DNA from: Caballeronia concitans | GTDB lineage: Bacteria > Pseudomonadota > Gammaproteobacteria > Burkholderiales > Burkholderiaceae | Length of the DNA: 64,000 bases | Direction of reading: 5' to 3' | NCBI RefSeq assembly: GCF_001544615.1 | Contig: NZ_FCNV02000011.1 | Coordinates: 62,001-126,000, forward strand | Shown here: positions 47,958 through 51,932 of the stretch, one piece after another | Layout: each line of letters opens with the position of its first letter | Position numbering within the stretch: position 1 is the first letter of the stretch | Program-made: the position numbers and the translations under genes | Notes under the pieces: generated by a model | Told to the model about the DNA's origin: nothing | Seen by the model: only the letters and a program-made list of their open reading frames with translations | Databases searched by the model: none

Positions 47958-48694
47958 TATCGGGAATCCTTCGGTGTTTCGGTCTTCGATGCGCTGGCCG
48001 CATCGTCGCGCGGCGGAAGAAAATCCGCATATTCGCGCTTGGGTAGTTTACCGGACACCAGATCGTCGAAAAGCTGACGCGAGCGGCCGCGCAAATACGG
48101 CGCCATGATCGAGATGATGTGCACGCTCACCTGATGCAGTTCCGCGCGGATCGCTTCCTGATCGTTGTATTTGCGCGGATTCATCACGTACTGATACGAC
48201 AGCCAGTACGTCGCGATCACGCCGATGTTCGTCGCGATCACCTCGATTTCCGCGGGCGTCGCGACCATTTCCTGATCGGCGACGAGCGCTTCGCACAACT
48301 GCCCGGCGAAGCGGACCTTGTGCGTGATGATCTGCTTGAAGTGCGTCTCGAGCGTGCGGTTGCGCGCGAGCAAATCGTTCAGGTCGCGGTACAGGAACCG
48401 GTACGTCCACAGGAAATCGGCCATGTACTGCAGATAGGACCACATCTCGTCGATCGTCGGACGATGGTCGTCCGGAAACCGCAGCCGCTTCTGAATCTGC
48501 TGCTCGAACTGCGCGAAGATGCTGTTGATGATGTCGTCCTTGTTCCGGAAATGGTAGTACAGGTTTCCTGGACTGATCTCCATTTCCTCGGCGATGGTCG
48601 TCGTGGTGACGTTCGGCTCGCCGATATCGTTGAACAACTTCAGTGACAGCTCGAGAATCCGTTCGCGGGTGCGGCGGGGAGGTTTGGCTTCCAT
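47957..48694 (-). CDS. TetR-family transcriptional regulator
   Basis: A 245-residue regulator. N-terminal HTH at about 10-60: 'TRERILELSLKLFNDIGEPN' and 'ISPGNLYYHFRNKDDIINSI'. The C-terminal all-helical part with 'LYRDLNDLLARNRTLETHF' is a ligand pocket of the TetR_C subgroup found in many Burkholderia. It may control the overlapping LOG gene and itself. Start at 48694 (AAGG upstream) or ATG at 48712. Confidence 0.9.
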   Translation of the reverse strand: MEAKPPRRTRERILELSLKLFNDIGEPNVTTTTIAEEMEISPGNLYYHFRNKDDIINSIFAQFEQQIQKRLRFPDDHRPTIDEMWSYLQYMADFLWTYRFLYRDLNDLLARNRTLETHFKQIITHKVRFAGQLCEALVADQEMVATPAEIEVIATNIGVIATYWLSYQYVMNPRKYNDQEAIRAELHQVSVHIISIMAPYLRGRSRQLFDDLVSGKLPKREYADFLPPRDDAASASKTETPKDSR

Positions 48695-48865
48695 GTCGTC
48701 CGACCTTGGCATCCGGCGCTCGCGAGCGTGCAGCGCGCGCCCGCGTCCGGTTCCGTTGCTATTTTTGAGAATATCGGACGATTATAAACTGCGCCTCTGC
48801 CGTTCCGGGCTTGGTTCCCGGGCGGGGTTTTCCCCTTTACGAGATGGTGTGGAAAAACGTTCGGA

Positions 48866-49357
48866 TCACAGTGTGAGCCGTTCGAGCCACATGACGAACG
48901 CCGGTGCGAGCGGCCACAGGATCAGCGTCCAGGTGACGACGCACGTCGCGAGCGCGATCATCACGGCGCCGCTGCCGAAGTCTTTCGCGCGTTTCGAGAG
49001 TTCGTGGCGTTCGAGCGAAATGCGATCGATGGCCGCCTCGACGCTCGAATTCAGCAGCTCGACGATCAGCACCAGCAGCACCGATGCGATCAGCGCCGCG
49101 CGCTCGACCGGCGCGACCGGCACGATCAGGCTGCACGGCAGCAGAATGGCCGCGAGCGTCAACTCCTGCCGGAACGCGCTTTCCTCGCGAATCGCGACGC
49201 GAAATCCCGAAATGGAATTCTTCATCGCGTGCCACGCGCGGGTGACGCCGCGATTGCCTTTATAGGGATTGAAGGGCAGGTCGTCGGTGCTCAGCGGTTC
49301 GCCGCGTTCTTCTTCGTCGTCGTCGGCCCGCTGGTCGGCAAGCGCGCGACGCGTCAT
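48866..49357 (-). CDS. dgkA: diacylglycerol kinase with acidic N-terminal extension
   Basis: A 163-residue DgkA. The membrane core has 'IREESAFRQELTLAAI' and 'VELLNSSVEAAIDRIS', the conserved catalytic Glu segments, and three hydrophobic helices. It phosphorylates diacylglycerol to phosphatidic acid. Compared with E. coli DgkA (about 122) there is a 40-residue acidic N-terminal extension with 'DDDEEERGE'. The ATG overlaps the glycosyltransferase stop as ATGA, so it is the third gene of the lipid cassette. Confidence 0.92.
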   Translation of the reverse strand: MTRRALADQRADDDEEERGEPLSTDDLPFNPYKGNRGVTRAWHAMKNSISGFRVAIREESAFRQELTLAAILLPCSLIVPVAPVERAALIASVLLVLIVELLNSSVEAAIDRISLERHELSKRAKDFGSGAVMIALATCVVTWTLILWPLAPAFVMWLERLTL

Positions 49358-50385
49358 GCAGCCGCCCGGTCGGAACTCGGCGCGCGCGGCCCGAATCGCC
49401 GCAAGTGCGAGGCGAACTGCTCCGACGCCGCCCGCCACGAAAAGCGTTCCGCCCACGCACGGGCGTCGGCGCGATCGATCGTCAGCGCCTTGAGACACGC
49501 CTCGCGCAAGTCTTCGTCGAGCGCGCCGGGGCCGTGCTGGCCGAGCACGTCGATCGGGCCCGTCACCGGATACGCCGCCACGGGCGTGCCGCAGGCCATC
49601 GCTTCGAGGAGCACGAGGCCGAACGTATCGGTGCGGCTCGGGAACACGAAGACATCGGCGGCGGCGTAGACCTTCGCGAGTTCCGGCTGCGACAGCACGC
49701 CGAGATAGTTCACGTTCGTATAGCGCGACTTCAGTTCCGCGAGCGCCGGACCTTCGCCCGCAACCCACTTCGAACCGGGCAGATCGAGCTTCAGGAACGC
49801 CTCCACGTTCTTCTCGACGGCCACGCGCCCCACGTACAGAAAGATCGGCCGCGCGGTGTTGAGCACCTTCGAGTCCATCGGATGAAAGATGTCGAGATCG
49901 ACGCCGCGCGTCCACAGCACGACGTTCGTGAATCCGTAGCGTTCGAGATCGTCCTTGACGACGGGCGTGGGCGCCATCACCGCCTGCGAGCGCCCATGAA
50001 ACCAGCGCAGGAATCGATACGTGAGCGAAAGCGGAATGCCGAAGCGCGCCTTCACGTACTCGGGAAAGCGCGTGTGATACGCGGTCGTGAACGGCAGCTT
50101 GTGACGCAGCGCGTAGGCGCGCGCGGCAAGCCCGAGCGGTCCTTCGGTCGCGATATGCAGCGCGTCCGGTTCGAAGGCGTCGATGCGCTCGGCGACATGG
50201 CGGCGCGGCATCAGCGAAAGGCGAATCTCGGGATACGTCGGGCAGGGAATCGTCTTGAACTCGAGCGGCGTGAGCATTTCCACGCGATGTCCGAGCGCCA
50301 TCAGTTCCTTGCCCGTGTTCTTGAGCGTTCGCACGACGCCGTTGACCTGCGGCTCCCATGCATCGGTCACGATCATGATTTTCAT
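49354..50385 (-). CDS. GT4 family glycosyltransferase, probable diacylglycerol glycosyltransferase
   Basis: A 343-residue GT-B transferase. 'DAWEPQVNGVVRTLKNTGKE' at the start, 'GRVAVEKNVEAFL' and 'PSRTDTFGLVLLEAMACG' (E-x7-E) are typical of MgtA/Agt-like GT4 enzymes that move a sugar from a nucleotide donor to diacylglycerol. It lies between a PlcP-like phosphoesterase and dgkA, so its acceptor is most likely diacylglycerol. The donor is unknown. It starts 29 bases after the plcP-like gene. Confidence 0.87.
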   Translation of the reverse strand: MKIMIVTDAWEPQVNGVVRTLKNTGKELMALGHRVEMLTPLEFKTIPCPTYPEIRLSLMPRRHVAERIDAFEPDALHIATEGPLGLAARAYALRHKLPFTTAYHTRFPEYVKARFGIPLSLTYRFLRWFHGRSQAVMAPTPVVKDDLERYGFTNVVLWTRGVDLDIFHPMDSKVLNTARPIFLYVGRVAVEKNVEAFLKLDLPGSKWVAGEGPALAELKSRYTNVNYLGVLSQPELAKVYAAADVFVFPSRTDTFGLVLLEAMACGTPVAAYPVTGPIDVLGQHGPGALDEDLREACLKALTIDRADARAWAERFSWRAASEQFASHLRRFGPRAPSSDRAAA

Positions 50386-50413
50386 AGCGATTCCAGAAGG
50401 ATGACGCGTGCGT

Positions 50414-51337
50414 TCAAACCGTGGCGCGCGTCTTGACGGGGCGTTGCTCTGGCGAGCGGATGACGGTCCAGTAGACGATCTTCAATTCGCCGTCGAAGGT
50501 CTCGACGAGCGCGGACAGGCTTTCGACCCAGTCGCCGTCGTTGCAATACAGCATGCCGTCGATGTCGCGGATTTCCGCCTTGTGGATATGACCGCACACG
50601 ACGCCGTCGCAGCCGCGGCGTCGCGCTTCATCGGTCATCACGCGTTCGAACTGCGAAATGAAGTTGACCGCGTTCTTCACCTGATGCTTCAGGTACTGCG
50701 AGAGCGACCAGTAATTGAAGCCGAGCTTCGTGCGCACGCGATTGAACCAGCGGTTGAGCAAGAGGATCGCGGTGTACGCGGTGTCGCCGAGATAAGCGAG
50801 CCACTTCGCGTGCTGGATGACGCCGTCGAAGAGATCGCCGTGCACGATCCACAGCCGCTTGCCCGCGAGCGTGGTGTGGAACGCTTCGCCGCGCACGTGG
50901 ATGTCGCCGAACGCGAGATCGCAGAACTGGCGCGCGGCTTCGTCGTGATTGCCGGGGATGTAGACGACCTGCGTGCCCTTGCGCGCCTTGCGCAGGATTT
51001 TCTGCACCACGTCGTTGTGCGCCTGTGGCCAGAACCAGCCTTTGCGCAACTGCCATCCGTCGATGATGTCGCCGACGAGATACAGATAATCCGAGTCGTG
51101 GTGCCGCAGAAAGTCGAGCAGATAGGACGCCTGGCATCCGCCGGAGCCCAGGTGGATGTCGGACAGCCAGATCGCCCGATAGCGATGCGGGCCGTCCGCG
51201 GAATCGCCTTCAGTGACCGGGTCGGACGTTTCGGGCGGACTGGACGGCAGCGTGACGCCGGTGCTGCGAAACCAGTAGGCCGGGGAGGGATCGATGGCCG
51301 GCGTGACAGACGAGTTCGAGGGCATTGGCTCGCGCAT
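50414..51337 (-). CDS. PlcP-like metallophosphoesterase (phospholipase C type)
   Basis: A 307-residue calcineurin-fold enzyme. 'IWLSDIHLGS', 'YLVGDIIDGWQLRKGW', 'YIPGNHDE', 'VHGDLFD' and 'CGHIHKAEI' supply all metal ligands. The stretch 'FWPQAHNDVVQKILRKARKG' is typical of PlcP, which in Sinorhizobium and marine bacteria cleaves phospholipids to diacylglycerol under phosphate starvation, and sets it apart from true LpxH. A Pho box lies upstream. Start at 51337 or 51325; a GTG at 51364 lies in the promoter. Confidence 0.87.
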   Translation of the reverse strand: MREPMPSNSSVTPAIDPSPAYWFRSTGVTLPSSPPETSDPVTEGDSADGPHRYRAIWLSDIHLGSGGCQASYLLDFLRHHDSDYLYLVGDIIDGWQLRKGWFWPQAHNDVVQKILRKARKGTQVVYIPGNHDEAARQFCDLAFGDIHVRGEAFHTTLAGKRLWIVHGDLFDGVIQHAKWLAYLGDTAYTAILLLNRWFNRVRTKLGFNYWSLSQYLKHQVKNAVNFISQFERVMTDEARRRGCDGVVCGHIHKAEIRDIDGMLYCNDGDWVESLSALVETFDGELKIVYWTVIRSPEQRPVKTRATV

Positions 51338-51370
51338 CGGGTTTCGGTATGCGCATTGCGCCACGCGGCC

Positions 51371-51388
51371 GTGACCGAGCCGTGACAG
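51371..51388 (-). promoter_or_regulatory. Pho box
   Basis: On the minus strand CTGTCAC-GGCT-CGGTCAC: two 7-base repeats 11 bases apart matching the PhoB consensus CTGTCAT/C with one mismatch in 14; only the 4-base spacer is less AT-rich than usual. It sits between the RDD gene stop and the plcP-like gene, 34 bases before the chosen ATG, so it should drive the lipid cassette when phosphate is low. Confidence 0.75.
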
Positions 51389-51416
51389 TCACGAGAAGTT
51401 CTTATTACGCGGGTTT

Positions 51417-51932
51417 TTATTTGCCGACGGATGCCTGCGCCGCGACGATGCGCGTGCCGGCCAGACGATCGTGCAGAAACTGGCGCGCCGGATCGAGAAA
51501 GACGGCGGCGGCCCAGAGCGCCACCCAGGCCGCGAACACGACGAGCGTCTGCGGCACGGCGAGCGAGAGGAGCGGATGCAGCGCGAGCGGCGGCAGGAAC
51601 CACAGCCACGCGAGCGCGTAGCGGGCGAGGGCGCGGCCGGGTTTGACCGGCTGGCCGTGCGCATCGACGACCTTGAGGCGCCAGGTTTTCATCGGCAAGG
51701 TCTGGCCGCCGTGGGTCCAGAACCACACGAAATACGCGGCGAGCACGACGCCGATCCACGACATCAGCAGATTGTGATGCGTGAGCCCGTTGCGCTGCTG
51801 CGTGAGCGTGCTGAAGAGATAGCCGGCGAGGAACACCACGCCGAACAGGATGACGCCTTCGTAGACCATCGTCGCGAGACGGCGGCGCAGCGCGGGCGCG
51901 TGAAGCGGCGGGACGGTGGCGGGGGCGTTCAC
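51417..51932 (-). CDS. RDD family membrane protein
   Basis: A 171-residue protein with three to four hydrophobic helices. 'LRRRLATMVYEGVILFGVVFL' and 'GGQTLPMKTWRLKVVDAHGQP' then 'DRLAGTRIV' are the RDD-family marks (Arg-Asp-Asp region relaxed). Function unknown; some act as ion exchangers. The start is GTG at 51932, 10 bases after the DUF3106 gene, so it is the last gene of the sigma factor operon. Confidence 0.85.
   Translation of the reverse strand: MNAPATVPPLHAPALRRRLATMVYEGVILFGVVFLAGYLFSTLTQQRNGLTHHNLLMSWIGVVLAAYFVWFWTHGGQTLPMKTWRLKVVDAHGQPVKPGRALARYALAWLWFLPPLALHPLLSLAVPQTLVVFAAWVALWAAAVFLDPARQFLHDRLAGTRIVAAQASVGK

Follow-up and report, generated by a model that had tools for sequence, protein, structure and literature searches.

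The closest described system is the PlcP-Agt1 pair of Pseudomonas aeruginosa. As reported in PMC8528852, purified PA3218 (Agt1) makes MGDG from diacylglycerol (DAG) and UDP-glucose, a lipid that plcP and agt1 mutants lose. Six types of plcP context (types 1-6) have been described in marine bacteria, of which type 2 consists of plcP followed by agt, and Pho boxes are present in plcP clusters; the section of PMC4796936 covered here names btaAB and glycosyltransferases but does not name a diacylglycerol kinase. The phosphate islands of HIMB59 carry a glycosyltransferase, an 'LpxH' and a diacylglycerol kinase along with pst and phoR-phoB; however, in the available part of PMC10734472 the glycosyltransferase and the kinase are deemed to be without a direct P-related function and LpxH is given as a lipid A enzyme, and the likeness to the present locus is one of gene lists only. 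For Pseudomonas putida BIRD-1, both DagK and PlcP are listed among the proteins of lipid remodelling that increase at low Pi, whereas gene linkage is not stated in the part of PMC5082522 available. The discussion of that paper calls both PlcP and DagK PHO-dependent; counting against this for DagK, the proteins listed there as absent from the phoBR mutant include PlcP but not DagK. The plcP-agt pair is thus already known, and its frequent third gene, dgkA, and the fusion described below seem to have been little noticed: a literature search on PlcP-Agt, with sources available in part, did not find dgkA as an operon partner, and the trio may already be among the plcP contexts tabulated in the supplement of PMC4796936.

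The locus studied here lies in a 64,000-nucleotide stretch of the Caballeronia concitans genome (hereafter, the window). An earlier reading, made from the sequence only, had described a PlcP-like enzyme, a GT4 transferase and DgkA in one tight operon behind a direct-repeat Pho box, and the reading frames, the sequence and Pfam searches confirmed this layout on the minus strand from 51388 to 48866, with the following features:

51371..51388, minus strand: Pho-box-like direct repeat CTGTCAC-N4-CGGTCAC, with 13 of 14 consensus positions
51355..51360, minus strand: possible -10 region CGCAAT, 10 bases past the box, weak and proposed from its spacing, in a block mostly kept in relatives
50414..51325, minus strand: plcP, a metallophosphoesterase of 303 aa, predicted phospholipase C (Pfam, metal motifs, comparison with LpxH, pairwise identity)
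49354..50385, minus strand: agt, a GT4 glycosyltransferase of 343 aa, predicted UDP-sugar:diacylglycerol glycosyltransferase (Pfam, pairwise identity)
48866..49357, minus strand: dgkA, a prokaryotic diacylglycerol kinase of 163 aa with a variable N-terminal tail (Pfam, match to a solved DgkA, tree)

The glycosyltransferase gene begins 28 bases past plcP, and the dgkA start and the agt stop overlap by four bases (ATGA). The three products matched, above the Pfam cut-offs, Metallophos (PlcP), Glyco_transf_4 and Glycos_transf_1 (the glycosyltransferase) and DAGK_prokar (DgkA). An alternative upstream start for plcP is the GTG at 51364; the ATG at 51325 is most likely the start used, because relatives keep this ATG and only 6 bases separate the GTG from the box. 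A scan of 48600-51700 for sigma-70 promoters found none.

The P. aeruginosa pair used for comparison lies on a plasmid record (NZ_CP137508.1) with a cyclase gene after it, and was taken, from the gene order, to be PA3219-PA3218. The plcP-glycosyltransferase-cyclase block on this record looks chromosomal, and a plcP match was also present in two further P. aeruginosa plasmid records. The present locus shares with the P. aeruginosa system the order plcP-agt, the Pho box before plcP and identities to the plasmid copy of 52% for PlcP (over 242 aa, pairwise) and 51% for the glycosyltransferase (over 335 aa); it differs in its third gene, no dgkA being annotated within 4 kb of the plasmid copy, and in that P. 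aeruginosa has a second glycosyltransferase, Agt2, encoded elsewhere (PMC8528852).

The operon phosphoesterase is a calcineurin-like metallophosphoesterase with intact metal motifs; DxH, GDxxD, GNHDE and GHxH were invariant across 15 PlcP sequences. The best E value for a solved relative by sequence search was 0.0088. Database names suggest another identity for this protein, the UDP-2,3-diacylglucosamine hydrolase of lipid A synthesis (LpxH): many public homologues bear that name (among records H1-H36 it is often given as UDP-2,3-diacylglucosamine diphosphatase or hydrolase), and the protein gives weak matches to LpxH models. On TIGR01854, however, it scored 33.5 bits against a cut-off of 190.35, whereas a separate LpxH encoded elsewhere in the same genome scored 223.3 bits; its motif is GNHDE rather than the GNRDF of that LpxH; and it is closer to the characterised PlcP, as its identity to the P. 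aeruginosa protein indicates, than to LpxH. The LpxH reading was rejected on score and motif and is regarded as highly improbable. An enzyme acting on UDP-diacylglucosamine only, the case that the sequence-only reading had named as fatal to its proposal, is likewise unlikely, since the genome has its own LpxH and the operon protein scores so far below the cut-off. In three same-genus genomes (G018, G015 and G035; loci L051-L053) plcP was found in broken pieces, and a fourth (G036) gave no plcP match. Strong fragmentation of two of the three assemblies makes sequencing error a possible cause of the broken frames. In several of the locus searches the PlcP query began at the second codon, with the first residue written as M.

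The glycosyltransferase has GT4 domains, adjoins plcP and is similar to Agt1, with the comparison pair taken to be PA3219-PA3218; its assignment rests on pairwise comparison, and no NCBIfam model reached its cut-off. The sugar donor cannot be read from sequence and is most likely UDP-glucose, supplying glucose. A Sinorhizobium meliloti relative (50% identity) was not used as proof of function, since it is encoded on pSymB and could be paralogous to the protein that has been characterised. GT4 enzymes are diverse, and the protein might instead glycosylate a different molecule, for example a polysaccharide destined for export or an LPS intermediate, a reading with which the failure of all NCBIfam models would agree; its pairing with plcP is frequent and not universal, no glycosyltransferase being found beside plcP in 17 of the best 80 named loci listed (hand count; some loci end early). 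Set against this are the identity to the plcP-linked P. aeruginosa glycosyltransferase and the position of a glycosyltransferase directly downstream of plcP in the other 63 of these 80 loci (hand count), and another acceptor is considered very unlikely.

The repeat CTGTCAC-GGCT-CGGTCAC was the sole match in the window to CTGTCAY-N4-CTGTCAY at two mismatches or fewer. At least one such match occurred in 53 of 100 shuffled windows, so by count alone the box is not above chance; it rises above chance because it is conserved in same-genus loci, where a box of 12 or 13 of 14 positions preceded plcP in 29 of 30, own genome included. Loci L051-L053, with plcP in pieces, still had 12-13 of 14, and in one same-genus genome of 60% completeness (L021:1-4017) the second half of the box was lost. 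At one mismatch or fewer, the whole genome (6.17 Mb) had four sites for the pattern and none for the reversed pattern: the plcP box, two within other genes, and one where a phnF-like gene begins. The phnF-like gene faces what we take to be phnG-like and phnH-like genes. The box is less regular in wider sets than within the genus. It reached at least 12 of 14 in 15 of 23 loci (the window, 20 family-sample loci, one further same-genus locus and one order-level locus) and 12 of 14 in 16 of 26 loci with plcP-agt-dgkA, against 3 of 26 for the reversed control, the four SAR116 loci of this set scoring just 9-10 of 14; and in 9 of 16 order-level loci the best box was matched by no more than 10 of 200 simple shuffles. 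The genome also has pstS, found by model, followed by genes that we read as pstC, pstA, pstB, phoU, phoB and phoR. Ahead of pstS are two box-like repeats (11/14 and 12/14) that overlap each other, and the 11 kb pst stretch held five repeats of at least 11/14 against about two expected. With an 11-bp direct-repeat box before it that is kept in relatives, the operon is a predicted member of the Pho regulon, to which PhoB would bind at this box. In one further locus (L108:11638-12010, reverse complement), dgkA lies 6.6 kb from agt, and a 12/14 box-like site is present somewhere in between.

DgkA scored 111.7 bits on PF01219 against a cut-off of 22.3, placing it in this family, and matched a solved DgkA chain along its length (E 2e-25). 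Ahead of the piece NPYKGN it carries 29 residues, 10 acidic and 4 basic. This acidic extension, previously singled out as a notable feature, is present here and is not conserved: across 17 tails, length varied from 9 to 114 residues (upper bounds, the most upstream start having been taken) and net charge from -9 to +4, and the extension was discarded as a shared feature. Just ahead of the membrane domain, most sequences read NPYKGN or NPHKGN; L091, L102, L109 and L043 depart from this. The window's genome has a second, unlinked dgkA (L082; G000:C12:9150-9449), which lacks the NPYKGN piece and adjoins what is presumably a bcsB-like gene near VgrG-like sequence. In the DgkA tree this second copy falls in a set (98/96) nested within the family's clade (100/99). 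The DgkA trees were built on about 120 columns and have many open forks; for the later tree, 11 of the 59 rows of the first were dropped (duplicates, two long branches and one broken fragment).

In a sample of 150 genomes of the family, plcP was found in 123, and in 110 of the 123 dgkA followed it one gene further downstream. This is a lower bound: among the 13 genomes counted as unlinked, plcP sits near the edge of its contig in G192, G113 and G115, and the match in G082 had no listed place. The 110 linked genomes span 13 of 16 genera, with dgkA 1.2-1.6 kb downstream on the same strand and room for one gene between. The three-gene arrangement, at first thought distinct, is therefore common in the family, and an arrangement peculiar to the window's genome was ruled out. 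It also recurs beyond the family. Linked dgkA was present in one of 16 order-level loci (L043) and missing from the other 15. In the class sample, plcP was found in 43 of 143 genomes, own included; among the other genomes with both genes, 8 of 28 had the two no more than 3 kb apart, against about 0.08 expected under random gene placement, and the remaining 20 were unlinked. The eight linked genomes, all outside the family, fall in several orders and differ in gene order: plcP-glycosyltransferase-dgkA (L116, L117), dgkA preceding plcP on the same strand (L113, L115, L119) and divergent (L114, L118, L120). Both genes were seen as reading frames in L113, L117 and L118, and at least one gene was placed by match coordinates in the other five. 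Such variation argues for more than one origin of the linkage, and for a task that the genes share. Of the best 80 named plcP loci listed, 26 had dgkA within about 0.5 kb after agt on the same strand. These comprise every one of the 15 loci L121-L135 (Caballeronia, Paraburkholderia, Burkholderia and Cupriavidus), two Polynucleobacter, five metagenome bins and four SAR116-titled loci. Three others among these 80 (L151, L188, L198) had dgkA nearby in another orientation.

In the four SAR116-titled loci, a continuous open frame of 464-465 aa encodes Agt and DgkA together, represented by:

L160:3789-5186: fused Agt-DgkA, a single open frame (also in L159, L162 and L163)

The fusion in L160, the one scanned, matched both the GT4 and the DAGK_prokar models of Pfam. 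Because three of the four are nearly identical, they count as about two independent observations. Two of the four SAR116 rows were used in the later DgkA tree, where they lie inside the family's clade, in a set with Polynucleobacter (97/92); since they group in this way, transfer of the cassette to SAR116 is suggested, and at 120 columns the tree is suggestive only.

The locus is probably a PhoB-activated lipid-remodelling operon, in which PlcP and Agt act together with recycling of DAG by DgkA. At low phosphate, PhoB would bind the box before plcP; PlcP would then cleave phospholipids to DAG and a freed phosphate head group, and Agt would add a sugar to DAG, most likely glucose from UDP-glucose, giving a phosphate-free glycolipid. 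DAG left unglycosylated would be phosphorylated by DgkA to phosphatidic acid and returned to phospholipid synthesis, so that DgkA could serve as a valve at the DAG branch point. The PlcP and Agt steps are established for the P. aeruginosa homologues and are assigned here by analogy; the role of DgkA is proposed from its known activity, the linkage and the fusion. Observed in this study are the gene content and order, the conserved box, the separate LpxH, the pst-pho cluster, the plcP-dgkA linkage and the Agt-DgkA fusion. Of the initial proposal, Pho-driven remodelling with DAG recycling stands as the best explanation, given the identity of PlcP-Agt, the separate LpxH and the conserved box; the distinct arrangement and the acidic extension have fallen away.

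The same remodelling by PlcP and Agt could also take place with DgkA as a housekeeping DAG kinase, placed in the operon without a part in its pathway and mainly recycling DAG from other reactions such as periplasmic glucan or LPS modification. Such a role is possible because the linked dgkA is often the sole copy: of the 110 family genomes with linkage, 85 had no PF01219 match besides it (hand count), and in these it must therefore serve any other need for a DAG kinase, and the unlinked majority of class genomes with both genes fits this role as well. On the other hand, the linkage has been repeated in different orders and orientations, agt and dgkA are fused in SAR116, and the window's genome keeps the operon dgkA despite its unlinked second copy; the housekeeping role is accordingly judged unlikely, while retaining some weight. 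The recurrent linkage and the fusion suggest instead that DgkA works as a partner enzyme where the routes of DAG diverge. A wider reading of the recycling operon is offered tentatively, and its parts taken together fall a little short of probable: PlcP, Agt and DgkA would form one functional module at the DAG node, the linked DgkA would be a phosphate-regulated part of remodelling and run a controlled substrate cycle against PlcP, and SAR116 would have acquired the module from a Polynucleobacter-like betaproteobacterium, with subsequent fusion of Agt to DgkA as a bifunctional enzyme that partitions DAG. With DgkA as working partner, a third enzyme would likely be added to the published two-enzyme pathway, and the operon offers a route to how cells split DAG between phosphate-free lipids and the rebuilding of phospholipids.

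The name UDP-2,3-diacylglucosamine diphosphatase masks likely lipid-remodelling genes, also in phages and perhaps on marine phosphate islands. Ten loci on viral contigs (L201-L210; fusion protein as query, some near-duplicates) all had plcP and agt, and in a PlcP search agt was adjacent in 35 of the best 80 viral loci listed (L211-L290), with no DgkA match in the fetched flanks of these 80. Some contigs labelled viral may be bacterial or prophage, the protein in L211 being 76% identical to that of the window. Neighbours in L204 and L206 matched phage DNA primase, thymidylate synthase and ribonucleotide reductase families. In the cultured Pelagibacter phage Mosig EXVC030M, plcP (L291:4998-5735) is annotated as UDP-2,3-diacylglucosamine hydrolase and, without an annotated agt beside it, adjoins a putative phosphate transporter gene.
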